Below, piece by piece: positions 8,421-28,363 of a stretch of 64,000 bases of DNA. The position numbers and the translations under genes are program-made. Numbering within the stretch: position 1 is the first letter of the stretch; every line of letters begins with the position of its first letter. A model generated the notes under the pieces. It was not told the origin of the DNA and did no database searches. It was given only the letters and a program-made list of their open reading frames with translations. The DNA lies in the NCBI RefSeq assembly GCF_008704495.1, contig NZ_CP023699.1, positions 1,364,001 through 1,428,000 of the forward strand, written 5' to 3'. This stretch comes from Streptomyces kanamyceticus (GTDB lineage: Bacteria; Actinomycetota; Actinomycetes; Streptomycetales; Streptomycetaceae).

Positions 8421-11201
8421 ATGCTCCTGGGGCGCTCCGCGGAATGCGCACGTCTTCTTGCCCTCATCGACAAGGCACGCGGGGGCGAGAGCGGCGCGCT
8501 GGTCATCCGCGGTGAGGCCGGCATCGGCAAGACGAGCCTCGTCTCGTACGTCGCGGACGCCGCCGACGACCTGCTGCGGATCGGCACCCGCGGCGTCGAG
8601 GTCGAATCGGACCTGCCCTATGTGGGCCTCGCCGATCTGCTCCGGCCCGTCCTGCACTTCCTCGACCGCATCCCGGAGCGTCAGGTCGCCGCGCTCACCG
8701 GCGCCCTCGCGCTCGGGCCCGCCGAGGCGCAGGACCGGTTCGCGGTGGCCGCGGGCACCCTCAGCCTGCTCGGCGCCCTCGCCGACGAGGGGCCCGTGCT
8801 CGTCACCGTCGACGACGCGCACTGGCTCGACCCGTACTCACTGGACGCGCTCGCCTTCGCCACCCGCAGGCTCGGCCGCGAGGGCGTCGTCGTCCTGTTC
8901 ACCACCCGCGACGCACCGGAGGAATCGGCCTCGCGGCTCGCCTCCATCGACACGCTGACGCTCGGCGGCCTCGACCCCGATTCGGCGCACCGGCTCATCG
9001 CCGAGGAGGGCACCGCCGAACTGACCGAGCGGGAGACGGCCCGGCTGCTCGCCGAGGCACGGGGCAACCCCCTGGCACTCATCGAGCTGCCCGCGCTGCT
9101 CGCGGGCAGCGACTCCGGGGGCGACGAGGAGGAATCCGGGGCGCCGCTGGCCATCGGGGAGCTCCTCGCCCACACCTTCGGCAGCGCGGTCGACCGGCTG
9201 CCGTCCGAGGCGCAGGACGCGATGCTGCTGCTCGCGGTCCTGGGCACCCGGCCGCTCGCGGGCACCGAGGCGGCGCTGCGGGCGCACGGGCTCAGCTACG
9301 AATCGCTGGAGGCGGCGGAGGCGGCGGGCCTGGTCGTCGAGGAGCGGGACGGGTACGCCTTCCGGCACCCGCTGGTCCGCTCCGCCGTCTACCACGGGGC
9401 GACGCCGGTGCGCAGGCGGCGGGCCCACCACGCGGTCGCCCGCTCCCTGCAAGGCGCGACCGCGCCCGCCCTGGAGCAGTACGCCTGGCACCTGGCCGCA
9501 TCGGGCGCCGAGCCGGACGAACACGTCGCCTCGCTCCTGGAGAACGCGGCGTCCGGCGCCCCGGAGACCCTCACGTACCCCCTCGCTTCCCGGCTGTACG
9601 AGCGGGCGGCGCGGTTCACCCCGGCAGGCCAGCGCAAGGCGGAGCGGCTCCTCGACGCCGCGCGGGCCTCGCAGGCCGCGGGGTCCCTGAACGAGGCGGC
9701 GGCGATCCTGGACCGCGCCCTGGAACACGCCGAGCAGCTCGGCACCCGGCTCGACATCCGACAGCTCCGCTGCTACCTGGACGTCCAGCGCGGTCAGCCG
9801 ACCCGTTCGCGCGAGCTGCTCAGGTCGGCGGTCGACGAGGCCGAGAAGGTCGACCCCGCGCTCGCCGCGGTGATGCTCGGCGGCATCGCCCTCACCGAAC
9901 TCGCGGTCGGCGACCTCACGGCGGCCCGGCACTCGTCGGCGGCGGCGATGCACATGGCGGGCTCCGCCCAGGAGGCGATGCTGCCGGTGCGCCTCCTGCA
10001 CACCCTGGTGCTGCTGCTCGGCGGCGACGCGGACGCGGGCAGGGAACTCCTGCGCGAGCTGGCCGAGCCGCTCGCCTCGCCCGATCCCGCGTTCCCCTAT
10101 CCGCTCTCCGGAGTGGGCGGCCTGTGCCATCTGGCGGCCGAGCAACTCGACGAGGCCTACGGCCTCCTCGACCGCGCCGCGTACACGGCGCGCGGTTCGA
10201 GCGCGGTGGGGCTGCTCTCCCACCTGCTGTGCACCCTGGCCGTGGTGGAGTTCTGGCGGGGCCGCTGGACGCCGTCGCTCGCCCACGCCGACGAGGCGGT
10301 CCGGCTCGCCGAGGCCACCGGGCGCCTCATCGAGGTGCCGCGCGGGCTCGCCGCGCTCGCCAGGACCGAGGCGGCGCTCAACCGCGAGGAGGACTGCAGG
10401 CGGCATGCCGCGCAGGCCCAGGAGTGGGCGCTCTCCACCGAGCTGCCGATGGACGCGGCCCGGGCGCGCGGCGCCCTCGGCCTGCTCGAACTGGGCCTCG
10501 GCCGCTTCGAGGAGGCGGTGCACTGCCTGGAGGACGTGCGCGCCTTCTCGCGGGAGCACGGGCGCGGCGACGGCCTGTATCTGACCTGGGCGGCCGATCT
10601 GGCCGACGCGTACGTCCATCTGCACATGACCGCCGAGGCCCGCGAGGTCCTCGACGTCCTGGAGTACGAGGCGGGCCGCGGCCACCGTCCGGTGACCGCG
10701 GGCGCCGCGGCGCGCTGTCGGGGGCTGCTCGAACCGGGAGACCCGGAAGCCGCCTCGCGGCACATGGAGCGCTCCCTCGCGCTGCTCGCCGAGCGTCCGG
10801 TGCCCTTCGAGCGGGGCAGGACCGAGTTCGCGTGGGGCGAGCAGCTGCGCAGGCAGGGCAGGCGCAGCGAGGCGCGGCGCCTGCTCGAACGGGCGCTCGT
10901 CACCTTCGAGCGGCTCGGCGCGACCGGGTGGGCGGCGCGGGTGGCCGCCGAACTGCACGCGGCGGGCGGCACCGAAGTGCGCCCGGAGCGGGCTCCGTTG
11001 GAGCGGTTGACCCCGCAGGAGCTGCAGGTGGCGCTCGTGGTCGGCCGGGGCCTCACCAATCACGAGGTCGCGGAGCGGCTCTTCCTCAGCGTGAAGACGG
11101 TCGAGTTCCACCTGAGCAACATCTACCGCAAGCTCGACGGGGTGAGCCGCAGGGCACAGCTCGTCCGGCTGCTCGCTCAGGCCGCCGAGGCGCCGGTGTA
11201 G
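8421..11201 (+). CDS. LAL-type LuxR-family transcriptional regulator (ATPase)
   Basis: A 926-residue regulator. The N-terminal AAA/STAND ATPase has a Walker A motif at residues 31-39 (GEAGIGKTS) and a Walker B motif in VLVTVDDAHWLD near 130. A helical TPR-like middle follows. The C-terminal LuxR helix-turn-helix (about 860-920) contains LTPQELQVALVVGRGLTNHEVAERL and VKTVEFHLSNIYRKL. The ATG at 8421 begins directly at the LLGRSAE motif usual for these proteins; an upstream GTG at 8349 would add 24 non-conserved residues. LAL regulators commonly activate neighbouring secondary-metabolite clusters, and cluster A starts immediately beyond on the opposite strand. The 3' end overlaps that cluster's last gene by 25 bp. 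Confidence 0.88.
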   Translation: MLLGRSAECARLLALIDKARGGESGALVIRGEAGIGKTSLVSYVADAADDLLRIGTRGVEVESDLPYVGLADLLRPVLHFLDRIPERQVAALTGALALGPAEAQDRFAVAAGTLSLLGALADEGPVLVTVDDAHWLDPYSLDALAFATRRLGREGVVVLFTTRDAPEESASRLASIDTLTLGGLDPDSAHRLIAEEGTAELTERETARLLAEARGNPLALIELPALLAGSDSGGDEEESGAPLAIGELLAHTFGSAVDRLPSEAQDAMLLLAVLGTRPLAGTEAALRAHGLSYESLEAAEAAGLVVEERDGYAFRHPLVRSAVYHGATPVRRRRAHHAVARSLQGATAPALEQYAWHLAASGAEPDEHVASLLENAASGAPETLTYPLASRLYERAARFTPAGQRKAERLLDAARASQAAGSLNEAAAILDRALEHAEQLGTRLDIRQLRCYLDVQRGQPTRSRELLRSAVDEAEKVDPALAAVMLGGIALTELAVGDLTAARHSSAAAMHMAGSAQEAMLPVRLLHTLVLLLGGDADAGRELLRELAEPLASPDPAFPYPLSGVGGLCHLAAEQLDEAYGLLDRAAYTARGSSAVGLLSHLLCTLAVVEFWRGRWTPSLAHADEAVRLAEATGRLIEVPRGLAALARTEAALNREEDCRRHAAQAQEWALSTELPMDAARARGALGLLELGLGRFEEAVHCLEDVRAFSREHGRGDGLYLTWAADLADAYVHLHMTAEAREVLDVLEYEAGRGHRPVTAGAAARCRGLLEPGDPEAASRHMERSLALLAERPVPFERGRTEFAWGEQLRRQGRRSEARRLLERALVTFERLGATGWAARVAAELHAAGGTEVRPERAPLERLTPQELQVALVVGRGLTNHEVAERLFLSVKTVEFHLSNIYRKLDGVSRRAQLVRLLAQAAEAPV

Positions 11202-12196
11202 GTTCCCGGCCGCCGCTGCGGCCCAAGTGCCCACTCCAGTACGGCCATCGCGCTGCTGAGCTTCATCGATGCCTGGGTCCAGGCCACCGAGCGCGGCCCG
11301 TCGAGCACCGCTCCGGTGACCTCGTCACCGCGGTGCGCGGGCAGGTCGTGCAGGAGGAGGGCACCGGGACGCCGTGTCATGAACTCCTCGTCGACGTGGA
11401 ACGCGCGGAACCGCTCGCGCCAGGCCGCGTCGGGCTTGCTGGTGCCGGTGGTCTGCCAGCGGGTGGTGTAGACGACGTCGACGCCGCTCGGCAGGTCGGC
11501 CGCGGAGTCCCGCCGGTCGATGACCGCTCCGTTGCGGGCCGCGCGCTTGCCCGCGGCGGACACGAGGTCGTCGGGGAGGCCGTAGCCGGGCGGGCAGGCG
11601 AAGGTGGCCTCACAGCCGGGGATCCCGGCGAGCGCGAGGGCGAGCGCGGCGGCGGTGTTGTTGCCCTCCCCCACGTAGAGGAGGCGCAGTCCGCGCAGGT
11701 CGTCGCCCAGGCAGAGCCGGAGCGTCGCCAGGTCGCACAGGCCCTGCGACGGGTGCTCCTCGGTGGCCATGGCGTTGACCACCGGGAGGTGTCCTGAGCG
11801 GGAGAGCCGCCGCAGCTCCGCCAAGGGCCCCGCCGTGCGGGCGACGAGGCCGTCGAGCATGCCGCCGAAGACCCTTCCGGTGTCCTCGATCGCCTCACCG
11901 GTGGAGAGCTGGAGGTCACCGGGGCCGTAGGTGACGGGAACCGCGCCCAGGCGCACGGCGGCCACCGTGAAGGCGGTCCTGGTGCGCGTGGACGGCTTGG
12001 TGAACAGCACGCCGACGGTGGCACCGGCCAGCGGACGGTCGTGCGCGGCGCGGTCCCTGTGCAGCTCCACGGACCGCTCCGCGAGGCGTGTGACGGTCTC
12101 CACGGAGAGGTCGGCCAGTGAGAAGAGACCGGTCTCCGGGGCCTCGGGCGGGGCGCCCCTGGGGACGGCGGCGTGCTGAGCGGCGTCAGTGTTCAT
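11177..12196 (-). CDS. ornithine carbamoyltransferase-family protein with altered substrate motifs
   Basis: A 339-residue transcarbamoylase. The carbamoyl-phosphate site is intact: STRTRTAF at 69-76 and HPSQ at 148-151. The amino-substrate site is not that of ornithine transcarbamoylase. The usual DxWxSMG becomes TTRWQTTG (244-251), and the catalytic HCLP becomes HDLP (283-286), losing the cysteine. It probably carbamoylates another amine. Next to diaminopropionate synthesis genes, beta-ureidoalanine formation is the best guess; VioL of viomycin biosynthesis is a precedent. The ATG at 12196 overlaps the upstream oxygenase gene by 11 bp. It is the last gene of cluster A. Confidence 0.82.
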   Translation of the reverse strand: MNTDAAQHAAVPRGAPPEAPETGLFSLADLSVETVTRLAERSVELHRDRAAHDRPLAGATVGVLFTKPSTRTRTAFTVAAVRLGAVPVTYGPGDLQLSTGEAIEDTGRVFGGMLDGLVARTAGPLAELRRLSRSGHLPVVNAMATEEHPSQGLCDLATLRLCLGDDLRGLRLLYVGEGNNTAAALALALAGIPGCEATFACPPGYGLPDDLVSAAGKRAARNGAVIDRRDSAADLPSGVDVVYTTRWQTTGTSKPDAAWRERFRAFHVDEEFMTRRPGALLLHDLPAHRGDEVTGAVLDGPRSVAWTQASMKLSSAMAVLEWALGPQRRPGTYTGASAA

Positions 12197-13166
12197 CGGG
12201 ATCCTCCCTGGGGATCTCTGCTGAGTCGGGCACGTCGACGAGCAGGCCCGCGGTGGCGAACGCCTCGGCGGCGCCCGGTAGTTCGAGTGCTCCGGCGTCC
12301 CGGAACAGGCGGACGGAGTGGCGTGCGGTGGTCCGTAGCGCACCCTTGCTCGCCGGGGTGCCGTAGCTGTCGGCGATGACGTCGCGCACCGCGTCGGGCC
12401 CGAGTCCCGCGACGGTCAAGGCGGCGCCCACGGGCCGCAGGTCGGGCGTGAGGCTGGAGACGATCAGCTCGGGCAGGCAGCGGGCGGCGCGCCGCTTGAG
12501 CGAGGTCGGCAGGTCGCTCCAGAGCCGCTCGAAGAACCGGGAGAAGTACACGTGGTGGTGGCCCTCGTCCCTGGCGTGGTCGCGGACGACCTCCCGCACC
12601 ACGGGCAGCACTTCCTGGTCCTTGGGCACCTCGTTGAGCACGGAGGTCACGAGCGTCTCGAAGACGACGACCTGGAGCAGCTGGGCGAGGACCGGTTCCC
12701 CGGCGAGGAGTTCGGCGCCGATGCCGTCGAGCTGGCGCAAGAACGGGTCGAAGGCGTACGGCAGCGGCGGGATGCCGGTGGCCGCGGCGATCTGCTCGAC
12801 GACGTCGAGGCTGAACAGCGCGTGATAGCCCTCGTCGCAGTAGATGCGGTAGGCGTCGAGCCGGACCCGCGCGGGCAGGTCGAGGCCGGTGCGGCCGTCG
12901 GCGATGCGCTCGGTGGCGCGGTTGACCACGCGGGTCTCGAAGTGGGCGGTGAAGTTCAGGTAGTGGTAGAGGTGGCGGGCCAGGAGCTCCTGACGGCGAC
13001 GCTCGGGCAGGGCGCGGACCAGGGGATGGTCCCAGTAGGGCACCAGGTGGTGCGGGAAGAACCGGGTCGCGGGGTCGAGGGGGCCGCTGACGGTCCGGTG
13101 CGGGCCGCTGCGCACCCCCGACCGCTCGTACCAGTCGTGGTTGTCGTCGAACTCGTGGTGGGTCAT
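12186..13166 (-). CDS. AurF-family ferritin-like diiron N-oxygenase
   Basis: A 326-residue soluble oxygenase of the p-aminobenzoate N-oxygenase family. All seven diiron ligands can be placed: Glu77, Glu112, His115 (DEGYH), Glu170, His197, Glu201 and His204 (DEGHHH). The spacings 35, 3, 55, 27, 4 and 3 almost match AurF (Glu101, Glu136, His139, Glu196, His223, Glu227, His230). The family oxidises amines to hydroxylamines, nitroso or nitro groups, or performs related oxidations. In this cluster the substrate is probably an amino acid or dipeptide amine rather than an arylamine, which is inference. It overlaps the carbamoyltransferase and follows the exporter by 57 bp. Confidence 0.88.
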   Translation of the reverse strand: MTHHEFDDNHDWYERSGVRSGPHRTVSGPLDPATRFFPHHLVPYWDHPLVRALPERRRQELLARHLYHYLNFTAHFETRVVNRATERIADGRTGLDLPARVRLDAYRIYCDEGYHALFSLDVVEQIAAATGIPPLPYAFDPFLRQLDGIGAELLAGEPVLAQLLQVVVFETLVTSVLNEVPKDQEVLPVVREVVRDHARDEGHHHVYFSRFFERLWSDLPTSLKRRAARCLPELIVSSLTPDLRPVGAALTVAGLGPDAVRDVIADSYGTPASKGALRTTARHSVRLFRDAGALELPGAAEAFATAGLLVDVPDSAEIPREDPDEH

Positions 13167-13223
13167 CTCGGTCTCTGCTCAAGTGGATCGCTGGGCAAGG
13201 GCGGTTGGCGGTGGGGGTGGCGG

Positions 13224-14483
13224 TCACCGGCTCCCGGCGTGCGGCGCGGCCTCGCGCAGCGCGTCCGGCTGGCGCACCCCGGAGCGGGCGGCCGCCGCGG
13301 CGAGCAGCCCGACGGCCGCGAACACCGGCCAGACGGCGCCGCCCACCGCCTGGAAGAGGAGCGCGCCGAGCGCGGGCCCGGCGGCGTAGCCGACGCTCTG
13401 TCCCGCGGAGAGCGCCGCGATGTAGCGGCCGCGCGCGCCGTCGGGCGCCGTGAGCGCCGGGTAGGCGAGCGTGGAGGGCGCGGCGACCATCTCGCCGAGG
13501 GTCCATACGACGGTGGCGGCCACCAGGAGCGCGGCGCCCGCGTGGATGCCGTACAGGCCGATGCCGCAGCCGATGAGCGCGATGCCGCCCGCGATGGAGA
13601 CGCGCATGGGCCAGGTCTGCACGTAGCGGGTCAGGGGCAGTTCGCCCACGATGACGAGGAGGCCGTTGAGTGCGACGAGCGCGGTGTACACGGCGGTCGG
13701 CACGCCCCGTTCGCGCAGGTCGAGCGGGAGCGCGGTCAGGTACTGCGACTCGACGAGCGCGATGAGGAACAGCGCGAGGACGACGAGCGTGAAGGCGCGG
13801 TCGCGCAGGACGTCGGCATAACGCGCCCCCGTAGATCCGCGCGCCGCCTTCGGTGCGCCCCCGCCGCCCGGCAGGACGACGAGCGCCACGAGTCCGAAGA
13901 GGACCGAGACGACCGCGTTGACCTCGAACATCAGCGTGTACGAGCCGGTCAGGAGCGCCGCACCGGCGAGCGGGCCGAGCGCCGCGCCGACGTTCAGCGC
14001 GAGCCGGAACGCGGCGGAGGCGACCACCAGGCGGTGCGCGGGCAGGAGTTCGGCCAGGAGCGCGGCGGCGGCCGGGCGGTAGACCTGGGACGCGGCGCCG
14101 ATGGCGGCGACGGTCAGCAGCAGCGCCCAGTAGCCCGGGGCGGCGGGCAGGGCCGCGGTGAGCAGCCCCGTGGCGATCACCGATCCGGCGATGGTGCGCC
14201 GGTTGCCGAGGCGTTCGGCGAGCGTCCCGCCGAGCAGCGTGCCGAGCACCGAGCCCGCCCCGTATCCGGTCAGGACGAGACCGGCCTGACCGGCCGTGTG
14301 GCCCAGGTGCGTGACGTACAGGACCACGAAGACCTGGACGTAGGAGCCCATGCGGTTCAGGGCGACCCCGGCGAGGAGCAGCCGTGCGGGGGTGGGCAGT
14401 TCGCGCAGGGCGGCGCGGATGCCGGGGTCGGGCTCCCGCGCCGCCTCGCTGGTCTCCTGGGCGGCCGGATCGGGTACGGTCAC
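13224..14483 (-). CDS. MFS transporter, probable exporter of cluster A
   Basis: A 419-residue, 12-helix major facilitator protein of drug-exporter type. Helix 1 begins LLLAGVALNRMGSYVQVFVVLYV, with the loop-2/3 motif GGTLAERLGNRRT. The GTG start at 14483 overlaps the stop of the upstream ATP-grasp gene as GTGA, so translation is coupled. It sits inside the cluster A operon between the ligases and the oxygenase, the usual place for self-resistance and product export. Substrate assignment is inference from position. Confidence 0.85.
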   Translation of the reverse strand: MTVPDPAAQETSEAAREPDPGIRAALRELPTPARLLLAGVALNRMGSYVQVFVVLYVTHLGHTAGQAGLVLTGYGAGSVLGTLLGGTLAERLGNRRTIAGSVIATGLLTAALPAAPGYWALLLTVAAIGAASQVYRPAAAALLAELLPAHRLVVASAAFRLALNVGAALGPLAGAALLTGSYTLMFEVNAVVSVLFGLVALVVLPGGGGAPKAARGSTGARYADVLRDRAFTLVVLALFLIALVESQYLTALPLDLRERGVPTAVYTALVALNGLLVIVGELPLTRYVQTWPMRVSIAGGIALIGCGIGLYGIHAGAALLVAATVVWTLGEMVAAPSTLAYPALTAPDGARGRYIAALSAGQSVGYAAGPALGALLFQAVGGAVWPVFAAVGLLAAAAARSGVRQPDALREAAPHAGSR

Positions 14484-15739
14484 GACGCCCTCCGCGCGTC
14501 GGTGACGTGTTCCAACGGCCTTGCGTGGAGAGCGACTTGGGCCTCCGCTTCGTCCAGGCGTCCGACGCACCCCTCGGGGGTGTCGGCGGCACACAGGACG
14601 TACGCGTACCGCTGGAGGTAGTCGAGCGGCGGCAGTCGGAGTTCGTCGCCGGGGGCCGCGAGTGCGGTGGCCCTCAGGAGTCCTGACGCCTCGTCGGGCG
14701 CGGGCACCGTGACGCGGTCGACGCGGCAGTGCTCGGGCGGGTAGAGGAAGCGGATGCCCGCCGCGCGCGCGTGGGTGGGGGTGAGGTCGGGCGGGGTGCG
14801 CAGGGCGACGTCGAGGGCGACCAGGCCCGGGTCGATGCCGGTGGCGAGCTTTCCCAGGTAGGGGATGAGGTCGCCGCCTAGCCTGCCGTTCACCTCGATG
14901 ACCACGAACCCCCGTGATGTCAGGCGCAGTTCGGTGTGGGTGACCGCGTGGTCGACCCGGAGCGCGCGGTGGGTCCTGGCGAGTATCCAGCGCAGGGCGG
15001 GGTCGTTCAGGAGCGGGTCCCCCGCGTCGACCAGGTGGCCGGTCTCCTCGAAGTACGGGGAGAGGCCGACCTCCTTGCGGGCGAGGAACATCGTCGCGTA
15101 CTCGCCGTCGTGGACGGCGCCGTCGACGCTGATCTCGGGACCTTCGAGGTACTCCTCGACGAGGATGCCCGCCCGGTACGTCGGGACGCCCGGGTAGTGG
15201 GCCGAGCGCGCGTCGGCGAAGAGCCCCGCGAGATCGGCCGCCGAGCGGACGAGGGCCACACCTCGGCTCGCGCCGAGACCACGGGGCTTGACCACCACCG
15301 GGTAGCCGATCCACTCTGCCGCGGCCGCCGCCTCCGCGAGATCGGCGACCAGGGCGAACTTCGGCTGCGGCAGCCCCGCGTCGCGCAGCAGCGCGCGGGT
15401 GCGGTGCTTGTCGCGGCAGTTGCGCACCGCGGTCACGGTCGGGCCCGGCAGACCGAGGGCCTCGGCGACCTGGGCGGCGGGCAGGATCAGCGCCTCGTCG
15501 TAGCAGAAGACGCCCCGCACCGCCCGGCGCTCGGCGACCGAACGAGCCGCCGCCACCAGGGCGTTGACGTCACTGGGCACCACTTGTGTGGAGCCCGCGA
15601 GATGGGGCGACTGCCAGGTGGGGGCGGTCTCGTCGAGCAGCCACAGGTCGGCCTTCAACGCGGCCGAGCGCAGCAGGTACTCGCGGTACTCCTGGGTGCC
15701 ACTGCCGACCACCAGAACCGTTTCTCCGCCAGTGTTCAC
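14480..15739 (-). CDS. ATP-grasp carboxylate-amine ligase
   Basis: A 419-residue stand-alone ATP-grasp ligase, which activates a carboxylate as acyl phosphate and joins it to an amine. Visible elements are the ATP-binding core GYPVVVKPRGLGASRGVALV (about 180-200), GILVEEYLEGPEISVDG, and the metal-binding VIEVNGRLGGDLIPYLGKL. It resembles the group that includes dapdiamide, bacilysin (BacD) and other dipeptide ligases. The GTG at 15739 overlaps the stop of the fusion gene before it (GTGA). Two such ligases in one operon suggest two successive amide bonds, that is, a tripeptide-like product, without any NRPS. Confidence 0.87.
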   Translation of the reverse strand: MNTGGETVLVVGSGTQEYREYLLRSAALKADLWLLDETAPTWQSPHLAGSTQVVPSDVNALVAAARSVAERRAVRGVFCYDEALILPAAQVAEALGLPGPTVTAVRNCRDKHRTRALLRDAGLPQPKFALVADLAEAAAAAEWIGYPVVVKPRGLGASRGVALVRSAADLAGLFADARSAHYPGVPTYRAGILVEEYLEGPEISVDGAVHDGEYATMFLARKEVGLSPYFEETGHLVDAGDPLLNDPALRWILARTHRALRVDHAVTHTELRLTSRGFVVIEVNGRLGGDLIPYLGKLATGIDPGLVALDVALRTPPDLTPTHARAAGIRFLYPPEHCRVDRVTVPAPDEASGLLRATALAAPGDELRLPPLDYLQRYAYVLCAADTPEGCVGRLDEAEAQVALHARPLEHVTDARRAS

Positions 15740-17541
15740 CGGTCCTCCTCGGGGTCGCTCTCGCGGCGGGGCAGCGCCACGCACTCCGGCGCGGGCACGA
15801 ACCCCTGCTTGCGGTAGAAGTCCCCGGAGTGGTTGCCGGGGTGCACGACGAACTTGACCCCGGGGTGCGGCTCGGTGGCCCGGCGCAGGAGTTCGCCGCC
15901 GATGCCGCGGCGCTGCAGGTCGGGGTGGACGGCCAGGTCGGCGACGAAGGCGTTGAACGACAGGTCCGTCAACACCCGGATGAGACCGACGAGGCGACCC
16001 GCCACGCGGGCGGTCATGAGGTGCTGCGAGGTCTCCAGCATCCGCCGCATGCGCGCGGGCTCGTCGATCGGCCCGTTGAGCTCGGCGGCGCGGAACAGGT
16101 CGGACACCTCGGCGGCTGCCGGGAGTTCGTCGGCGTACACGACGGGTGCGGATCCGGTGAGCTCGGCCCGCTGCCGCTCCCCCTCCCCGGCGACGAGGCT
16201 CGCCTCCAGGCCGTCCAGGATCCGGTAGGTGTCGGCCTTGAGGGTGGCGGGGTCGTCGGCGGTGAGGTAGGCGATGCCGCCGATGCTCAGCGCCGCGGCG
16301 GCCGCGTCGTAGCGCGGCATCACGGTTCCGTCGGGCACCGTGCTGCCCCGGGCGATCTCCACCGTGGTGCCGGGCGAGACCAGCGAACCCCAGTCGTGCG
16401 TACGCCAGTTGAGGCGCGGCAGCGTGGCCCAGGGCGTGCCGCGCGAGTCGGTGGCGATCAGCGCGAGCGATGCGGCGGCCCGGCCCTCGCCGGTGACCAG
16501 CATGCGGTCCGGGTACTTCTGCGGCTCGCTGAGCGCCTCGCGCGCCTGAAGGGTGATCAGGTCGACGCCGTACACCTCGGCGACCTCGCGGGTGACCATC
16601 GCCCCGCCGACCCGGGCGGCCGTCTCCAGGAGGCTCAGCCGGTTGCCCGCCATCAGCTTGAGCTCGGTGTGCGTGGCGCAGGTGTCGAGGCCGAGCGAGT
16701 CGACCGCGCGCCGCGCGTGCTCCTCGACGATGCGCTGCAGCCGCTCGGGCAGCACGCAGGGCGCCTGGTTGCTCAGTTCGGTGAAGGGCGCGACGGTGGG
16801 CAGCCTGCCGGTGACGCACACCGGGTGGTAGGTACCGGCGGCGACGATGCCCTCGACGCTCAGGTAGTCGCCGTAGCCCCGCGTGTCGTCGCGGCTCTCG
16901 TCGTACCAGGACTCGGTGGTGGACTCGATGAGTTCCTCGGCGACGAAGGACGGCACGTCCGTGCCCGCCGTGTAGTCGCCGAACCCGTCCCCGCGAGCCG
17001 CGCGGTCGACCTCCAGGGCGCGGTGCCACACCTCGGCGATGTCGGTGTCCTCGCCGATCACGACGTGCCCGATCGACCCGGCCCCGTCGGCGCGCTTGAG
17101 CAGGAACGGCAGCGCGATCCTGTCCCTGGCCCGCTGGAGGTCACCGAGGCTGGTGACGTGCCGGAAGCGCGGCACGGGCACACCGGCCCGCTGCCAGCGC
17201 AGCCGCATCAGCCACTTGTCGCGCGCCCTCGCCGCGTTGACGCCGGGTCCTGGCAGGCCGAGCCGCACACAGGCCTCGGCCACCGGACGCACCGCGTACT
17301 CGGAGAACGTGAGCAGGCCGTCGGCGCCGATCCGGCGGGCGTGTTCGGTGAGCGCGGTGACGGGGTCGGCGGCCGAGCTCCGGTCGGTGACGTCGGCACA
17401 GTGCCTGCCGAGCTCGCCGAGGGCGAAGTCGTCGACCGGGGAGAGCAGCACCGCGTGCACGGACGCGGTGGCGGCGAGCCGGGGCAGGGCGTAGTCCAGG
17501 GACGGGCCGCTGCGGCCCGCGACGAACAGGAGTCGTTTCAC
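15736..17541 (-). CDS. ATP-grasp ligase fused to GNAT N-acetyltransferase
   Basis: A 601-residue two-domain protein. Residues 1-430 form an ATP-grasp ligase (PFLLKRADGAGSIGHVVIG, FVAEELIEST, LSLLETAARVGGAMV). Residues about 450-590 form a GNAT acyltransferase with the acetyl-CoA motif AVHPDLQRRGIGGELL. Fusion means the ligation product or substrate is probably acylated by the same polypeptide, either as tailoring or as self-protection, as GNAT enzymes do in tabtoxin-type resistance. ATG start at 17541; it is coupled by GTGA to the second ligase and is 43 bp downstream of the SbnB-like gene. The domain pair is seen directly; its purpose is inference. Confidence 0.87.
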   Translation of the reverse strand: MKRLLFVAGRSGPSLDYALPRLAATASVHAVLLSPVDDFALGELGRHCADVTDRSSAADPVTALTEHARRIGADGLLTFSEYAVRPVAEACVRLGLPGPGVNAARARDKWLMRLRWQRAGVPVPRFRHVTSLGDLQRARDRIALPFLLKRADGAGSIGHVVIGEDTDIAEVWHRALEVDRAARGDGFGDYTAGTDVPSFVAEELIESTTESWYDESRDDTRGYGDYLSVEGIVAAGTYHPVCVTGRLPTVAPFTELSNQAPCVLPERLQRIVEEHARRAVDSLGLDTCATHTELKLMAGNRLSLLETAARVGGAMVTREVAEVYGVDLITLQAREALSEPQKYPDRMLVTGEGRAAASLALIATDSRGTPWATLPRLNWRTHDWGSLVSPGTTVEIARGSTVPDGTVMPRYDAAAAALSIGGIAYLTADDPATLKADTYRILDGLEASLVAGEGERQRAELTGSAPVVYADELPAAAEVSDLFRAAELNGPIDEPARMRRMLETSQHLMTARVAGRLVGLIRVLTDLSFNAFVADLAVHPDLQRRGIGGELLRRATEPHPGVKFVVHPGNHSGDFYRKQGFVPAPECVALPRRESDPEEDR

Positions 17542-17584
17542 AGGTCTTCTCCGTGACGTACGAGAGGTATGAGAGGGCCGCCGG

Positions 17585-18622
17585 TCAGCGGGGCAGCGCG
17601 GTGCCCAGGCCCCGGTGGCGCGCGACGCGGAAGACCCGGTGGGCCAGCGCGATGTCCTCGACGGCGAGGCCGAAGGGGTTGACGACGATCAGCTCGTCGT
17701 CGCCGGTGCGCCCGGGACGCGCCCCGGTGAGCACCTCGCCGAGGGTCGCGGCGTCTTCCTGCCGGACGCGGCCTTCGCGCAGCAACGTGCCGAGCAGGCG
17801 GTACGGGTCGTCGCGGATCAGGTCCCAGTCGTCCACGTACAGCCGGTCCGCGCCGGTCAGCACGGATTCGGTCAGGTCGTCGAGCGAGACGTTCACCGCG
17901 AGCGCGCCGGAGGCGAGCCAGGAGCGCTCGACGTAGCCGCGCCGGGTGTTGGTGCAGGCGATCACCACGTCGGCGCCCCGCGCGGCCGTCCGCGCGTCGA
18001 CGGCCGCGGTGACCTTGACCTCGTGCGCGCCGAGGGCGTCGCCCATGTCCCGCTCGAACTGCGCGACGCGGCCCGGCACCTCGTCGTACACCCTGATCTC
18101 CTCGATGCCGGGCAGCCTGCCGGCCAGCATCAGCGCATGCTCGCGGGCGATGACGCCCGCGCCGTAGAGGGCCGCGGTGCGGGCGCCGGGGCGGACCAGG
18201 TGGCGGGCGGCGAGCACGGAGACGGCGGCGGTGCGCAGCGCGCTGATGTGGGCGCCCTCCATGACGCACAGCGGGCGTGCGGTCCTCGGGTCGAAGAGCA
18301 CGGTCAGTCCGCTGGCGCGCGGCAGGCCCTGGGCCACGTTGGCCGGGTTGGCGTTGATGACCTTCGTGCCCACGGCCGTGAGACCGCCCTCCACCAGGCC
18401 CGGCATGTTGATGCTGCGGGCCTCGCCGCCGTCCGGCGGCGTCCAGCCGAGGTAGGCCTCGGGCGGCAGCACGGTCCGTCCCCCGGCATGCGCGACGAGT
18501 GTCTCGTGCATGCAGGCCAGCGGGTCGATCTCGGCGCAGGCCTCGCGCACTTCGGCGCCGGAGAGGTAGGTCAGGGTGTCGGATTCGGGCAGGTGAGCGG
18601 TGCGGTTGTCGTGAGCGGACAT
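17585..18622 (-). CDS. SbnB-like N-carboxyethyl-glutamate dehydrogenase (ornithine cyclodeaminase family)
   Basis: A 345-residue NAD-dependent enzyme of the ornithine cyclodeaminase/mu-crystallin family, with the dinucleotide motif LYGAGVIAREHALML and a conserved LTVLFDPRTARPLCVMEGAHISALRTAA. Paired with an SbnA-like gene, it matches SbnB of staphyloferrin B, which oxidises N-(1-amino-1-carboxy-2-ethyl)glutamate to L-2,3-diaminopropionate and 2-oxoglutarate. The ATG at 18622 has GGGGGAT upstream. The frame is open further upstream only through a tandem repeat (HTAP units), which is rejected as coding. Specificity is inferred from the pairing. Confidence 0.85.
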   Translation of the reverse strand: MSAHDNRTAHLPESDTLTYLSGAEVREACAEIDPLACMHETLVAHAGGRTVLPPEAYLGWTPPDGGEARSINMPGLVEGGLTAVGTKVINANPANVAQGLPRASGLTVLFDPRTARPLCVMEGAHISALRTAAVSVLAARHLVRPGARTAALYGAGVIAREHALMLAGRLPGIEEIRVYDEVPGRVAQFERDMGDALGAHEVKVTAAVDARTAARGADVVIACTNTRRGYVERSWLASGALAVNVSLDDLTESVLTGADRLYVDDWDLIRDDPYRLLGTLLREGRVRQEDAATLGEVLTGARPGRTGDDELIVVNPFGLAVEDIALAHRVFRVARHRGLGTALPR

Positions 18623-18707
18623 GGTGTTCGGATCCCCCGTTGTGGTGCGCGCCGCGCGAGTGCGGCGCCATGACGTGACATACGTGTGACTAGTGATGTG
18701 CACAGTG

Positions 18708-18743
18708 GTGTGAGGAGCGGTGTGAGGAGCGGTGTGAGGAGCG
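18708..18743. repeat. 12-bp tandem repeat in the sbnA-sbnB intergenic gap
   Basis: Three exact copies of GTGTGAGGAGCG plus a partial fourth, in the 169-bp gap between the sbnA-like stop and sbnB-like start. On the minus strand it would read His-Thr-Ala-Pro, but it is judged non-coding. Confidence 0.85.
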
Positions 18744-18791
18744 GTGTGCCGGGCTGCGCCGGGCGCCCCGGGCGGTCGGCGGCCTCGTCCG

Positions 18792-19868
18792 TCAGACGAT
18801 TTCCGCGGCGTCGAAGGCGAGTCCCGCCACCTCGGCCCGGGCGGCCGCCGCCGTGCCTGTCGTACCGGTGGTGAAGCCGTGTTCGCGGAGCCAGGCCCCG
18901 CTGTACAAGGTGTCCTCGTAGCGGTCGGCGCCGTCCGCACAGAGACAGACGACCCGTTCCGCTTCCGGACGCTCGGTCAGGTAGCGGGCCGCCGCGGCGA
19001 GCACGGCGCCCGACGATCCGCCGACACCCACGCCGGTCTGTGCGCGCAGCACCTGACAGGCGGCCACGGCCTCGGCGTCCGGCACGTGCCTGACCTGGTC
19101 GCAGTCGCCGGGCCGTGCGAAGTCGGAAGGGCGGCCCGCGCCGATCCCGGTCAGCCTGCGCCGCCCCGGCGGGCCGCCGAGCGCCACGGAGCCGCGGACG
19201 TCCACGGCGACGACATGACACTCGGGGGCGACCATGCGCAGGTACTGGGCGACGCCCGCCAGGGTGCCGCCGGTGGAGACGGCCACGAAGACGGCGTCGG
19301 GGCAGCCGCTGCCGCTGCCGCCTCCGCTTCCACTGCCGCTTTCGCTTCCGTGCCGCAGGATCTCGGGTCCGGTCTGTTCGCGGTGGACGCGCGGGTTGGC
19401 CGGATTGCGGTACTGGTCGGGCCAGACGCAGGTGGGATCGGACGCGAGCAGGTCACGGACCCGGCGGAGCCTGGCCCGCAGATATCCGCCGTGCGCGTCG
19501 GGCAGGTCGACCCGTTCCACGGCCGCGGCCAGGGCGGCCATCTCGTCGAGGTTGCGCCGACTCGTCTTCGGGTCGACGACGGCGACGAAAGGGTAGCCGC
19601 GGCTCCGGCACACGTAGGCGAGCGCGGCGCCGAGGTTCCCCGAGGTGGATTCGACCACCGTACGTCCCGGGCCGAGCAGTCCGCGGTCCTCCATGTCCTC
19701 CACGAGCGCGTAGGCGGTCCGGTCCTTGACCGAGCCGCCGGGGTTGAACTGTTCGAGTTTCAGGCCCACTTCACGCCATCGTCCGGCCACCTTGAGCCGT
19801 ACGGGCACCAGTGGAGTGCGCCCGATCCTGGAGACGTCCCGCGCCCGAGCGGGGGTGCCTCCGGGCAC
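18792..19868 (-). CDS. SbnA-like PLP synthase (2,3-diaminopropionate biosynthesis)
   Basis: A 358-residue fold-type II PLP enzyme of the cysteine synthase family. It starts SRIGRTPLVPV, carries the PLP lysine in NPGGSVKDR, the substrate loop TSGNLGAA, and the phosphate cup STGGTLAG. SbnA condenses O-phospho-L-serine with L-glutamate, so this should be the first step of cluster A. An unusual Ser/Gly run (SGSGSGGGSGSG, bases about 19305-19345) is inserted before PDAVFVAVSTGG; it looks like a slippage-expanded linker. The GTG at 19868 preceded by GGGACGGGG is chosen, since conserved sequence begins 10 residues later; the start is uncertain. Confidence 0.83.
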   Translation of the reverse strand: MPGGTPARARDVSRIGRTPLVPVRLKVAGRWREVGLKLEQFNPGGSVKDRTAYALVEDMEDRGLLGPGRTVVESTSGNLGAALAYVCRSRGYPFVAVVDPKTSRRNLDEMAALAAAVERVDLPDAHGGYLRARLRRVRDLLASDPTCVWPDQYRNPANPRVHREQTGPEILRHGSESGSGSGGGSGSGCPDAVFVAVSTGGTLAGVAQYLRMVAPECHVVAVDVRGSVALGGPPGRRRLTGIGAGRPSDFARPGDCDQVRHVPDAEAVAACQVLRAQTGVGVGGSSGAVLAAAARYLTERPEAERVVCLCADGADRYEDTLYSGAWLREHGFTTGTTGTAAAARAEVAGLAFDAAEIV

Positions 19869-22697: not shown

Positions 22698-23903
22698 GTG
22701 AACAGCACACCCAGTTCCGGCGACATCCAAATGGCCTTCCCTCAAAATCGCGACGGCCTCCCCATCGTGAGTCTCGATCAGGCTCACTCGCCACAGAAGG
22801 TTCTCGCCCACGGCGATTTGCTGCGGCGCTTCGTGGCAGGGGAAGAGATCAAGCCCGTCCATATGCGGATCGGCATCATGGGCGCCTGCAATATGCGCTG
22901 CAATTTCTGCAACTTCCACTCCCCCAACGAAGAGCAGTTCTACGACCTGTTCTCGTTCAAGGACTCGATCGCCACCGACAAGGCGGTCACGCTGCTGCGA
23001 GAGTTCGCCGAGAACGACGGGCGGGCCGTGACCTTCTGCGGCAGCGGCGAGTGCACCATCCACCCCGGCTACACCGACATCTGCCGCGCCGGGCACGCCG
23101 CCGGGCTGCGGATCGGCCTGATCACCAACGGCTCCCGGCTCGGCCGCCCCAAGGTCGCCTCCTGCGTCGCCGAGACCCACACCTGGGTCCGCATCGGCCT
23201 CAACGCGGGCACCGAGGCCACCTTCGACGACATCACCCGGGACCGCGAACAGACGTTCTCGAAGTTCATCGGCTCGGTCGGCAAGCTCCGCGAGAGCGCC
23301 GTCGACCCGGACTTCCGCATCGGCTTCAACTACGTGATCACCCTGCAGAATTACCGGGAGATCATGGACGCGGCCCGTATCGCCCACGAATCCGGGGCGC
23401 ATTATGTGCGCTTCGAACCGGAGTTCTACAGCGCGATGGGCCACGAGACCATCGAATCCGTGATGTCGGAGATCTCGGAATCCCTCACGCAGGCCGCCGA
23501 ACTCTCCACGGAAGCCTTCGAAGTATCGGTGCCGAAGCTGGACCGAGGACCGATGGACCAGGTCGAAGAGGTCGAGGGCGACTTCGAACACTGCCACTAC
23601 AGCCGCTTCGTGACCGCGGTCGGCGCCGACGGCAATCTCTATCCGTGCCCGCAGGTGCATCTCAACAGCCGCTATCTGATCGGCAATGTCGTCGAGCAGA
23701 GTTACTCCGAGGTACTCGACGGCGGCCCGCGAGCCGAGTGGGAAGCCTCCAACCCGCGCAGGACCGACCTGTGCAAATCATGTTTCTACCGGCCGCAGAA
23801 CGAACTGCTCGAACTCCTCAAGCGCGGCCAGATCAAACTGGACGAGGCGCTGGACGCCTACGCGCTGGAAGTGCCGAGCACCCTGCACGGCGACTTCGTC
23901 TGA
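22698..23903 (+). CDS. radical SAM enzyme with C-terminal SPASM/twitch-like Cys region
   Basis: A 401-residue radical SAM protein, first gene of cluster B. The [4Fe-4S] triad CxxxCxxC is Cys64, Cys68, Cys71 (GACNMRCNFCNF). A GGE-like variant appears as GSGEC (115-119). C-terminal Cys299, Cys317, Cys359 and Cys362 (LCKSCFY) look like ligands for an auxiliary cluster. It probably generates a 5'-deoxyadenosyl radical for dehydrogenation, epimerisation or C-C chemistry on a small molecule; no precursor peptide gene is visible. The GTG at 22698 follows a GGGGGG run; an ATG at 22731 is the alternative. A strong promoter lies 53 bp upstream of the GTG. Confidence 0.88.
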   Translation: MNSTPSSGDIQMAFPQNRDGLPIVSLDQAHSPQKVLAHGDLLRRFVAGEEIKPVHMRIGIMGACNMRCNFCNFHSPNEEQFYDLFSFKDSIATDKAVTLLREFAENDGRAVTFCGSGECTIHPGYTDICRAGHAAGLRIGLITNGSRLGRPKVASCVAETHTWVRIGLNAGTEATFDDITRDREQTFSKFIGSVGKLRESAVDPDFRIGFNYVITLQNYREIMDAARIAHESGAHYVRFEPEFYSAMGHETIESVMSEISESLTQAAELSTEAFEVSVPKLDRGPMDQVEEVEGDFEHCHYSRFVTAVGADGNLYPCPQVHLNSRYLIGNVVEQSYSEVLDGGPRAEWEASNPRRTDLCKSCFYRPQNELLELLKRGQIKLDEALDAYALEVPSTLHGDFV

Positions 23904-23910
23904 GCCGCGG

Positions 23911-26052
23911 ATGCAGCTACGTCACGTCCGTCGGCTGCTCGCCGCCGAGCCCGCCCTGCGGTTCGCCGCAGGGCCCTCGGCGGCACCGCCGGCCCACCGC
24001 GCCTGGTCCCGTCAACTCCGTTCAGTCATCACCCGGTTGGCCCGCGTCGAGCACGCCACGCTGACCGTCGCGCAGCGCACCGTCTCGGACGAGGGAGAGC
24101 TGCACCGCGAGCACCTCGTCCTCGACTCCCCGCTGCGCGGCACCTTCCACGGCACGCTGCTCGCGCCGCGGGACATCGCGCAGGGGCCCGCCGTCCTCGT
24201 ACTCGGCGGCAAGAACGCCCGGCTCGACCAGCTCACCGGCGACGTACCCCCTGACCACCCCGACCGCAACGTCGCCGAGCAGCTGGCGCGGGCGGGCTTC
24301 GTGACCCTCTCCCTCGACCACGGCATCGGCGGTGGCCTCGACGCGGAGCGCAGGGCGGGAAGGGACGAAGGCACCCTGCTCGCCCACGCGTTCGCGCTGA
24401 CCGGCAGATCGCTGCTCGGCGCGCTCGTCGGCGACGCCCTGGGCGCGCTCGACGTCCTGAGCGCCCATCCGCTCGTCGACCCCGACCGTGTCGGCCTGTT
24501 CGGCCACAGCCTCGGCGCCGCGGTCGCCCTGCACACCTCGCTGCTGACCGACGACCGTCGGCTGCCGCTCTGCGCGGCCAGCCACCTCGGCAGCTACCCG
24601 GCGCTCTACGAAAGGCTGTTGACCGGCCACGAGGGCGCGGTCCTGCCCGGCATCCTGGAGTACGCCGACCTGCCCGACCTCTACGCCGCGCACGCCCCCG
24701 CCGCGCTGCAACTCCAGTACGGCACGGCCGACTCCTTCCTGGAACCCGCCGACGCGCGCGCCGCCGCACGGCGGGTCGAAGAGGCGTACGCGGTCGCCGA
24801 CGCGGACGTGGAAGTGCACGAGATCGCCATGGGCCACGGCACCCACGTCGGCCACGCCGCGGACTTCTTCACCCGCACCCTGGCCAAGCCGCATGACGCG
24901 GGACCGCCCGCCCACCAGGCCGAAGTCCCCGCCCAGCGCATCCACTTCGAGGTGTCGCAGCGGCGCGCCGTGCTCGACCGCGTGGACGCCGCGCTCGCCT
25001 CCGGCATGCTCACCCAGGGCCCACAGGTGGCCCGCTTCGAGGAGCTCTCGCGTGCCTGGACCGGCACGGACACCGCCGCCGTGGCGTCCGGCTCGGCCGC
25101 CCTGGAGATCGCCCTGCGCATCATCGGCGTGAGCGGCCGCACCGTGCTCGTGCCGGTCAACACGTTCTTCGCGACGGCGGCCGCGGCGGTGCGCGCGGGC
25201 GCGGCAGTGCGCTTCGTCGACATCGAGCCGGACGGGCTCGGCCTTGACCCCGACGCGCTGCGCACGGCCCTTGACCTGCACCCCGACACCGCGGCCGTCC
25301 TCCCGGTGCACATCGGCGGCATCGTCTCACCCGCCATCGACGCGGTCCTGCCGCTCTGCGCGGAACGCGGCATCCCGGTGGTCGAGGACGCCGCGCACGC
25401 CTTCGGCTCCACCCTGCGAGGACGCCCGGCCGGGAGTCTCGGCAGGTTCGGCGCCTTCTCCTTCTACCCGACGAAGGTCGCGATCAGCGGCGAGGGCGGA
25501 CTACTCAGCGCGGCCAGCGCCGAGGACCTGGAGCAGGTGCGACGCTGGCGCGACCACGGCAAGTGCGCCCAGGGCTCCACGCTGCACGACCGTCCCGGCA
25601 GCAACTGGCGGCTGAGCGAACTGCACGCCGCCGTCGGCACGGTCGACCTGGAGCGCTTCGCCGTCACGCTGACGGCACGGCGTGAACTCGCCGCGCGCTA
25701 CGACGCGTTGCTCGCCGACGTGCCCGGCATCCGCCCGCACCCCGTGCCCGACGCCGCGGGCAGCAACTACTACAAGTACCTCGCCTATCCCGACCCCGAA
25801 GGCCCCCTGGACCGCGCGCTCCTGAAGAAGCGCCTGCGGGAGCGGCACGGTGTGGCGCTTGCCGGGGAGGTCTACGACCATCTGCTGTGCGACCACCCCT
25901 ACTTCGTGACCGAGGGGCGGTCCTCCGAGCCGGGTCCTTTCACACGGGCCCGCTGGTTCGCCCGCCACCACGTAGCGCTTCCGCTGTACCCGTCGCTCAC
26001 GGAGGCCGAGCAGATCCGGGTGGTCGCCGCGCTCCGCAGCGAGCTGTCGTGA
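23911..26052 (+). CDS. alpha/beta-hydrolase fused to DegT/DnrJ/EryC1 aminotransferase
   Basis: A 713-residue bifunctional protein. Residues about 60-325 are a dienelactone hydrolase-like alpha/beta-hydrolase with nucleophile Ser200 in GHSLG and a late His in MGHGTHVGH. Residues about 340-710 are a DegT/DnrJ/StrS PLP aminotransferase with Lys522 in FSFYPTK, preceded by VVEDAAHAFGS. DegT enzymes aminate keto-sugars, cyclitols or aldehydes. The fusion suggests hydrolysis and transamination act on one pathway intermediate. It starts 7 bp after the radical SAM gene and is coupled by GTGA to the next gene. I know of no well-studied protein with this domain pair. Confidence 0.87.
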   Translation: MQLRHVRRLLAAEPALRFAAGPSAAPPAHRAWSRQLRSVITRLARVEHATLTVAQRTVSDEGELHREHLVLDSPLRGTFHGTLLAPRDIAQGPAVLVLGGKNARLDQLTGDVPPDHPDRNVAEQLARAGFVTLSLDHGIGGGLDAERRAGRDEGTLLAHAFALTGRSLLGALVGDALGALDVLSAHPLVDPDRVGLFGHSLGAAVALHTSLLTDDRRLPLCAASHLGSYPALYERLLTGHEGAVLPGILEYADLPDLYAAHAPAALQLQYGTADSFLEPADARAAARRVEEAYAVADADVEVHEIAMGHGTHVGHAADFFTRTLAKPHDAGPPAHQAEVPAQRIHFEVSQRRAVLDRVDAALASGMLTQGPQVARFEELSRAWTGTDTAAVASGSAALEIALRIIGVSGRTVLVPVNTFFATAAAAVRAGAAVRFVDIEPDGLGLDPDALRTALDLHPDTAAVLPVHIGGIVSPAIDAVLPLCAERGIPVVEDAAHAFGSTLRGRPAGSLGRFGAFSFYPTKVAISGEGGLLSAASAEDLEQVRRWRDHGKCAQGSTLHDRPGSNWRLSELHAAVGTVDLERFAVTLTARRELAARYDALLADVPGIRPHPVPDAAGSNYYKYLAYPDPEGPLDRALLKKRLRERHGVALAGEVYDHLLCDHPYFVTEGRSSEPGPFTRARWFARHHVALPLYPSLTEAEQIRVVAALRSELS

Positions 26053-28330: not shown

Positions 28331-28363
28331 CGCGCCGGGTTCCCCAGCTTCGAAGGATTCATC

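Follow-up and report, generated by a model that had tools for sequence, protein, structure and literature searches.

The window, a 64,000-nucleotide stretch of the Streptomyces kanamyceticus genome (contig NZ_CP023699.1), contains on its minus strand a seven-gene operon in which predicted enzymes for L-2,3-diaminopropionate (DAP) supply stand beside an AurF-type diiron oxygenase, a transcarbamylase, two ATP-grasp ligases, and a transporter. We give an even chance to the reading that this operon makes a small peptide independently of nonribosomal peptide synthetases (NRPSs), with an N-oxidized beta-ureidoalanine as its key residue, by the steps proposed below. The product would most likely be a di- or tripeptide containing this residue, which is perhaps beta-(N-hydroxyureido)alanine.

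From the gene families, we infer the following substrates, order of hydroxylation and carbamoylation, site and extent of oxidation, peptide partners, and GNAT role. SbnA would convert O-phospho-L-serine and L-glutamate to ACEGA, from which SbnB would release DAP oxidatively. One of the two DAP nitrogens, most probably that at the beta position, would be hydroxylated by the AurF-type enzyme. With carbamoyl phosphate as the donor, the transcarbamylase would then carbamoylate the beta-nitrogen to yield beta-(N-hydroxyureido)-L-alanine, a glutamine/citrulline look-alike. The two ATP-grasp ligases would join the N-hydroxyureido residue to one or two further amino acids, the fused GNAT domain might protect or cap either the warhead or a pathway intermediate by acetylation, and the MFS protein would export the product.

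Gene content and organization of the operon

The operon proteins were assigned with Pfam and NCBIfam profiles, and the seven genes named in a first-pass annotation of this DNA were all recovered in place on the minus strand. Their family assignments are well supported by these matches, and the pathway that the annotation had outlined (i.e., a DAP peptide joined by ATP-grasp enzymes, carbamoylated, and N-oxidized by an AurF-type enzyme) holds at the protein-family level. The SbnA-like gene (18792-19868, with a start at 19868 or 19808; TIGR03945, E 9.5e-97, 323.7 bits) is followed by genes for an SbnB/CmnK-like dehydrogenase predicted to release DAP (17585-18622; TIGR03944, E 2.8e-73), a BacD-like ATP-grasp L-amino acid ligase fused to a C-terminal GNAT acetyltransferase (15736-17541; BacD 3wo1, PF13508), a second ATP-grasp L-amino acid ligase with LAL_C2 (14480-15739; PF13535, PF18603, BL00235 3vot), an MFS transporter that is probably an exporter (13224-14483; PF07690, E 2.8e-36), the AurF-type oxygenase, a proposed N-hydroxylase of a DAP nitrogen (12186-13166; PF11583, E 9.4e-29), and the transcarbamylase, which bears the signature of DAP-type enzymes (DPTCases) (11177-12196; PF02729 and PF00185). 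The start of the last gene is at 12196, correcting an earlier reading of 12343.

The genes had been described as one coupled operon. Four tight junctions and a spacing of 43 bp between the SbnB-like and first ligase genes support this description, and the 169-bp gap between the SbnA- and SbnB-like genes departs from it. GTGA overlaps of 4 bp each occur at 15739/15736 and 14483/14480, the AurF and transcarbamylase genes overlap by 11 bp (12196/12186), and the MFS-to-AurF gap is 57 bp. The second ligase gene has a GTG start within its 4-bp overlap, with a GAGGAGGA stretch directly upstream. The same seven genes occur in identical order in Streptomyces silaceus (73-88% identity; the contig stops within SbnA), indicating that the set is not a chance feature. 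As had been claimed, neither the operon nor any of the thirteen flanking proteins scanned with Pfam yielded an NRPS or a polyketide synthase; one flanking protein (27212-28330) gave a sub-threshold AMP-binding match.

Pfam and PDB matches also bore out the two ATP-grasp ligases, one with GNAT, and the exporter. Among solved structures, the two ATP-grasp proteins come nearest to BacD (bacilysin) and BL00235: the first ligase matches BacD 3wo1 across residues 61-331 (E 5.3e-45), and the second, in which LAL_C2 is present, matches BL00235 3vot (E 1.6e-22). The first ligase differs from these related sequences in its GNAT fusion (PF13508, residues 507-582). The transporter bears on whether the product could be a metallophore, in which N-hydroxyurea or hydroxamate groups of a DAP peptide chelate metal. 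Staphyloferrin B is reported to incorporate DAP, and N-hydroxy groups are iron-binding; nevertheless, the seven genes include no siderophore uptake gene and their sole transporter is of the MFS type, and we regard a metallophore as highly improbable.

Predicted DAP supply

The SbnA-like protein scored below the TIGR03945 equivalog cutoff (323.7 versus 349.95 bits) and the SbnB-like protein below that of TIGR03944 (246.8 versus 326.9 bits). TIGR03945 was still by far the best family for the former and TIGR03944 the best for the latter; given these scores, which count against the proposed pathway, we retain the suffix "-like" for both. The top PDB match of the SbnA-like protein was CmnB (8if7; E 3.7e-71), followed by SbnA (5d84; E 7.6e-59), and that of the SbnB-like protein was CmnK (7cxs; E 1.6e-62), followed by the 4m54 group (E 3.9e-53), which is annotated as putative ornithine cyclodeaminase. 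Such proximity to CmnB and CmnK is as expected for a pair whose predicted partner resembles VioL/CmnL. Residues R132, Y152, and S185 of SbnA are reported to bind O-phosphoserine, and they align with R133, Y153, and S198 of the window protein, in which the phosphoserine-site residues are thus kept.

A DAP-type transcarbamylase

According to the available text of PMC4581275, DPTCases carry (T/S)RWQTTG in the 240s loop in place of the DxxxSMG of ornithine enzymes, and HDLP where others have HCLP. Applying the published residue numbers with an ungapped offset fails past the first motif owing to indels, and the motifs themselves were used instead. The window transcarbamylase carries YTTRWQTTG and HDLPAH, and its carbamoyl-phosphate site is complete (STRTR at residue 69; EEHPSQ, corresponding to HPxQ). 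The (T/S)RWQTTG motif is present in 17 of 18 AurF-associated transcarbamylases and in that of locus L129, the Streptomyces atriruber protein (L017) being the one without it; HDLP is found in all 18 and in L129. What had been noted as a non-canonical transcarbamylase therefore gains sharper support from a published signature, and its prediction as a DAP-type enzyme is well supported at the family level.

Ornithine or putrescine carbamoyltransferase was ruled out, the recognition loop being different and the curated cutoffs being missed. Diaminobutyrate transcarbamylases have TRWQSMG, and the window protein has TTG rather than SMG, a distinction that the available text of PMC4581275 calls unclear.

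The transcarbamylase tree requires five changes of AurF association, at least three of which are forced by well-supported branches, implying that the DAP-type transcarbamylase also works without AurF. This result counts against the proposed pathway, as does one clade locus (L126) whose 20 kb include SbnA and AurF but lack a transcarbamylase. The order of steps is also affected, since carbamoylation might come first, with the AurF-type enzyme hydroxylating the terminal urea NH2 of beta-ureidoalanine to an N'-hydroxyurea. DAP-type transcarbamylases are common without AurF, and DAP is thus probably their usual substrate, so that AurF could act afterwards. However, a carbamoylated substrate seems dispensable in L126, although a distant transcarbamylase match elsewhere in that genome could still serve. 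A urea NH2 is moreover a poor nucleophile for amine-using N-oxygenases, and we consider this order decidedly unlikely.

The AurF-type oxygenase and its linkage to DAP genes

The predicted seven-ligand diiron oxygenase matched the AurF/CmlI fold at 18-22% identity in structural alignments, as the first-pass annotation had anticipated. Its candidate ligands (E77, E112, H115, E170, H197, E201, and H204) align with Glu/His residues of AurF 3chh that we take to be iron ligands, and all seven are conserved without exception across the 18 clade members compared. The fold and the seven-ligand site are shared with AurF and CmlI, the substrates of which are arylamines, unlike DAP; these substrates count against the proposed DAP hydroxylation. 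The oxygenase is nonetheless proposed to be a putative N-hydroxylase of a DAP nitrogen, on the grounds of its genomic linkage.

The main survey covered 392 genus-mate genomes, with five AurF candidates scored per genome. A DAP-type transcarbamylase lies <2 kb from 14 of the 15 AurF matches at E<=1e-99, compared with 0 of the 18 weaker ones, the cut having been chosen after the table was seen, at the break from 3.4e-99 to 1.4e-93. In 394 genomes sampled at class level, one further close AurF occurs, its neighbors being SbnA, SbnB, and a transcarbamylase that carries the two motifs; four weaker matches belong to a different operon. Among the fetched stretches of 20 clade loci, SbnA was found in 19 and SbnB in 13; the transcarbamylase was found in 19, a count biased upward since some loci were fetched through this gene. 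The recurrent proximity of the oxygenase gene to genes for SbnA and a DAP-type transcarbamylase supports placing it in an AurF clade tied to DAP genes.

The difference between the SbnA and SbnB counts could reflect oxidation of ACEGA itself by AurF, which would free N-hydroxy-DAP directly and make SbnB partly redundant. One genome (G413) fits this, with SbnA, AurF, and transcarbamylase but no SbnB match at E<=1e-10. SbnB is retained, however, in 13 loci, the window operon among them, and five of the seven SbnB-less loci (L018, L019, L041, L044, and L126) have a clear SbnB match elsewhere in the genome. The match in S. atriruber (G432) is weak (2e-28), which leaves G413, a 93% complete genome, as the only one without any. 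A simple reading of SbnB as dispensable is weakened by these matches elsewhere in most such genomes, and we judge ACEGA quite improbable as the AurF substrate.

Five loci (L080, L083, L084, L086, and L129) combine SbnA, AurF, and transcarbamylase with a methyltransferase, and neither window ligase has a match in their fetched stretches. Of the 20 clade loci, only 2 contain a match to the first ligase, which speaks against the proposed peptide pathway, and the neighborhoods of other ATP-grasp relatives (L119-L124) contained no AurF or transcarbamylase match. A synthetase-like protein of the related loci had no Pfam match (L080 copy) and no PDB match (L126 copy). SbnA, AurF, and DAP-type transcarbamylase are a recurring module with at least three layouts.

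These layouts also bear on whether beta-ureidoalanine and a differently N-oxidized amine (hydroxylamine, nitroso, or nitro) could be separate residues, the latter possibly formed after ligation. Two ligases permit three residues, and AurF and CmlI carry out a six-electron oxidation with a nitro group as the end product. In the five loci without window-type ligases, by contrast, the AurF substrate is probably an amino acid derived from DAP, and separate residues appear unlikely to us. Oxidation to the hydroxylamine stage fits better, because a beta-nitro group would leave no beta-nitrogen to carbamoylate, yet both enzymes are conserved together. A bolder reading, which we hold to be somewhat less likely than not, is that SbnA, AurF, and the DAP transcarbamylase act as a portable unit making beta-(N-hydroxyureido)alanine: the aliphatic beta-amine of DAP or ACEGA would be hydroxylated and the hydroxylamine nitrogen carbamoylated. 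The resulting amino acid would serve by itself, after methylation, or as a peptide constituent attached by ATP-grasp ligases. On this reading, the AurF family would have a branch acting on aliphatic amines, and antimetabolites of the hydroxyurea type could arise through diiron chemistry.

Comparison with known pathways and significance

The capreomycin and viomycin pathways (CmnB, CmnK, CmnL/VioB, VioK, VioL) share with the window an SbnA-like protein, an SbnB-like protein, and a DAP-type transcarbamylase, the likeness resting on structure matches for CmnB and CmnK and on the enzyme-type signature, compared by description, for CmnL and VioL. Those pathways rely on NRPSs and are not known to include an AurF enzyme, whereas the window operon has ATP-grasp ligases and AurF and lacks an NRPS assembly line. 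We know of neither carbamoylation nor AurF in the dapdiamide pathway. This pathway (DdaF, DdaG) likewise uses an ATP-grasp ligase to form amide bonds on DAP independently of NRPSs, and its products carry a fumaramoyl group oxidized by an Fe/2-oxoglutarate enzyme, as described in the available text of PMC12568646. Pfam and NCBIfam found no gene for fumaramoyl transfer (DdaG) or Fe/2-oxoglutarate oxidation among the seven. For L-alanosine (ala/aln), DAP N-hydroxylation is likewise proposed, there assigned to a flavin-dependent enzyme and accompanied by an N-N bond, in contrast to the AurF-type enzyme here; the available text of this review (PMC11705231) does not mention AurF, and an L-alanosine-type pathway was rejected as the enzymes named there differ from those of the window. 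Searches of the open-access literature, some of them directed at single enzymes or compounds, turned up no product or description of the gene set (MIBiG and subscription papers being outside this scope), in agreement with the earlier statement that no such cluster had been described.

The analysis links a hitherto unassigned AurF clade with a single amino acid precursor and a single partner enzyme, and its reaction thereby becomes testable. If the proposed pathway is correct, N-hydroxyurea amino acids and peptides containing them could be made in this way. Glutamine/citrulline mimics such as N-hydroxyureidoalanine could plausibly act as antimetabolites, and N-hydroxyurea synthesis would be a use for the N-oxygenase and the transcarbamylase.

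Operon organization and diaminopropionate supply

The genome of S. kanamyceticus (10.13 Mb, one contig) carries the operon on the minus strand. From approximately 19868 down to 11177, the genes encode an SbnA-like protein (18792-19868), an SbnB-like protein (17585-18622), an ATP-grasp ligase with a GNAT domain (15736-17541), a second ATP-grasp ligase (14480-15739), an MFS protein (13224-14483), an AurF-type diiron oxygenase (12186-13166), and a transcarbamylase (11177-12196); all seven genes noted in the first-pass annotation were present. Four junctions consisted of an overlap or a short gap, and the SbnA-SbnB spacing was 169 bp. The identical seven-gene order was found in S. silaceus (L016; 73 to 88% identity), on a contig that stops inside SbnA. 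In S. atriruber, AurF and the transcarbamylase adjoin the same downstream neighbours as in the window, and an SbnA fragment lies immediately before AurF, at the contig edge. Elsewhere in the window, a radical SAM/SPASM protein, a DegT-type aminotransferase, a weak AMP-binding match, and a PhyH dioxygenase are encoded consecutively (22731-29224), possibly a second small-molecule cluster adjoining the operon.

The PDB entries closest to the SbnA-like protein were the capreomycin enzyme CmnB (E = 3.7e-71) and then Staphylococcus aureus SbnA (E = 7.6e-59); those closest to the SbnB-like protein were CmnK (E = 1.6e-62) and then the 4m54 entry group. Both proteins scored below the NCBIfam equivalog cutoffs. 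Window residues R133, Y153, and S198 aligned to SbnA R132, Y152, and S185, which are described as selecting O-phosphoserine (PMC12414870). SbnA is reported to convert glutamate and O-phosphoserine to ACEGA, which SbnB hydrolyzes to L-2,3-diaminopropionate (DAP) and 2-oxoglutarate (PMC9485241).

ATP-grasp ligases

The first ligase was BacD-like (E = 5.3e-45), with GNAT at its C terminus, and the second was BL00235-like (E = 1.6e-22). With three candidates scored in each of 392 genus-mate genomes, the GNAT part of the first ligase was covered by no match but that of the window itself; the matches in all 47 other genomes that had one stopped by residue 484. Among the best 120 protein-database matches for each protein, contig sizes were shared between GNAT-fused ligase homologues and AurF homologues for four Streptomyces besides this one (594936, 23468 [S. 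silaceus], 733105, and 469100 bases), for a Kineosporia (652885 bases), and for two further contigs (36019 and 96464 bases); an unfused ligase was similarly paired with AurF in a Leifsonia (1593872 bases). These matches, in which same-contig placement is read from equal contig sizes alone, suggest that the pairing extends outside the genus.

Linkage of AurF to a DAP-type transcarbamylase

The window transcarbamylase belongs to the ornithine branch. It lacks both DxxxSMG and HCLP and carries YTTRWQTTG and HDLPAH. (T/S)RWQTTG and HDLP are described as features of DAP transcarbamylases, the key changes from ornithine enzymes being loop Asp to Thr/Ser and Cys to Asp (PMC4581275). Counting the window's own, RWQTTG was present in 17 of 18 AurF-associated transcarbamylases and HDLP in all 18; the L129 protein has both.

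The 392 sampled genomes yielded 33 AurF matches at E ≤ 1e-60 (five candidates scored per genome). With transcarbamylases limited to E ≤ 1e-75, 14 of the 15 AurF matches at E ≤ 1e-99, a cutoff placed post hoc where the E values jump from 3.4e-99 to 1.4e-93, lay within 2 kb of a DAP-type transcarbamylase. The sole exception (G339) has the order SbnA-AurF-methyltransferase, and the surrounding 20 kb contains no transcarbamylase. None of the 18 weaker matches lay within 2 kb of a transcarbamylase; four, each a second AurF gene close to a first, were separated from one by 6.7 to 14.9 kb. In the 394 class-level genomes (window's included), one more close match (G745) was likewise accompanied by SbnA, SbnB, and a transcarbamylase. 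Four weaker matches (G689, G650, G480, and G465) were located in another operon, together with genes for an SDR, an aminotransferase, and a dioxygenase-like product. A different AurF subfamily (L020, L028, L032, L033, L048, L127, L128, and L130-L133) occupies a conserved operon in several actinobacterial genera, with an SDR and, identified by eye, a class I aminotransferase and a tryptophan 2,3-dioxygenase-like protein.

A tree of 36 transcarbamylases required five changes of AurF association (at least three forced), so this transcarbamylase type is used both with and without AurF; one of the latter (L090) is near an NRPS gene. Two transcarbamylases grouping with those of methyltransferase-type loci (L094:10046-11056 and L098:9864-10823) have lost the RWQTTG signature and have HGLP and HDLPAQ, respectively; no AurF match was found in either stretch.

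Architectures of the clade loci

We compared 20 loci encoding close AurF homologues (the window, L016-L019, L041, L042, L044, L045, L080, L082-L084, L086-L089, L095, L126, and L129), counting S. atriruber once despite its two handles (L017 and L079). Within the fetched stretches, some of which were shortened by contig ends, SbnA was present in 19 loci, SbnB in 13, a methyltransferase in 10, and a LysE-type exporter in 7; the first of the window's ligases was present in 2. The transcarbamylase was present in 19, a count biased by L080-L095 having been fetched through this gene. Three layouts recurred, i.e., the window type with ligases; SbnA-AurF-(SbnB)-transcarbamylase-methyltransferase; and LysE-AurF-transcarbamylase-SbnA-SbnB within larger clusters. 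SbnA and AurF were approximately 5.6 kb apart in the window; in L019, the distance was 9 kb.

Individual loci showed further features. At L082:7302-9901, the AurF frame continues into an SbnB fragment, and a methyltransferase gene sits between two SbnB fragments. The larger clusters L042, L045, and L087 each encode two AurF enzymes; in L042, a haem-oxygenase-like iron enzyme and a 2OG-Fe dioxygenase are also encoded close to SbnA/SbnB, giving a cluster with many possible N-oxidation steps. A protein of 350 to 395 aa (L080:11901-13052, L126:7285-8406, and L129:13852-14910) has, by eye, class I aminoacyl-tRNA synthetase-like motifs; a Pfam scan of the L080 copy and a PDB search with the L126 copy gave no match. 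Encoded next to an N-oxygenase, this protein may contribute to N-N bond chemistry or serve as a resistance copy.

Proposed pathway and novelty

In the simplest reading, DAP formation would be followed by N-hydroxylation, carbamoylation, ligation, acetylation, and export. AurF occurs without a neighbouring transcarbamylase in L126, and the transcarbamylase is found at many loci that lack AurF; this independent occurrence suggests that neither enzyme strictly requires the other's product. Carbamoylation would be impossible at a beta-nitrogen fully oxidised to nitro, so the joint conservation of the two enzymes fits a hydroxylamine-stage product, which we infer to be beta-(N-hydroxyureido)alanine.

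The first-pass annotation knew of no described cluster with this gene set, in agreement with our full-text searches in an open-access library, which gave no description of such DAP features combined with an AurF enzyme. DAP transcarbamylases are known from viomycin and zwittermicin. DAP peptides made via an ATP-grasp enzyme are known from the dapdiamides (PMC12568646), and N-hydroxylation of DAP has been proposed for alanosine (PMC11705231). Each feature is thus known singly, and their combination with an AurF enzyme appears to be the new element.
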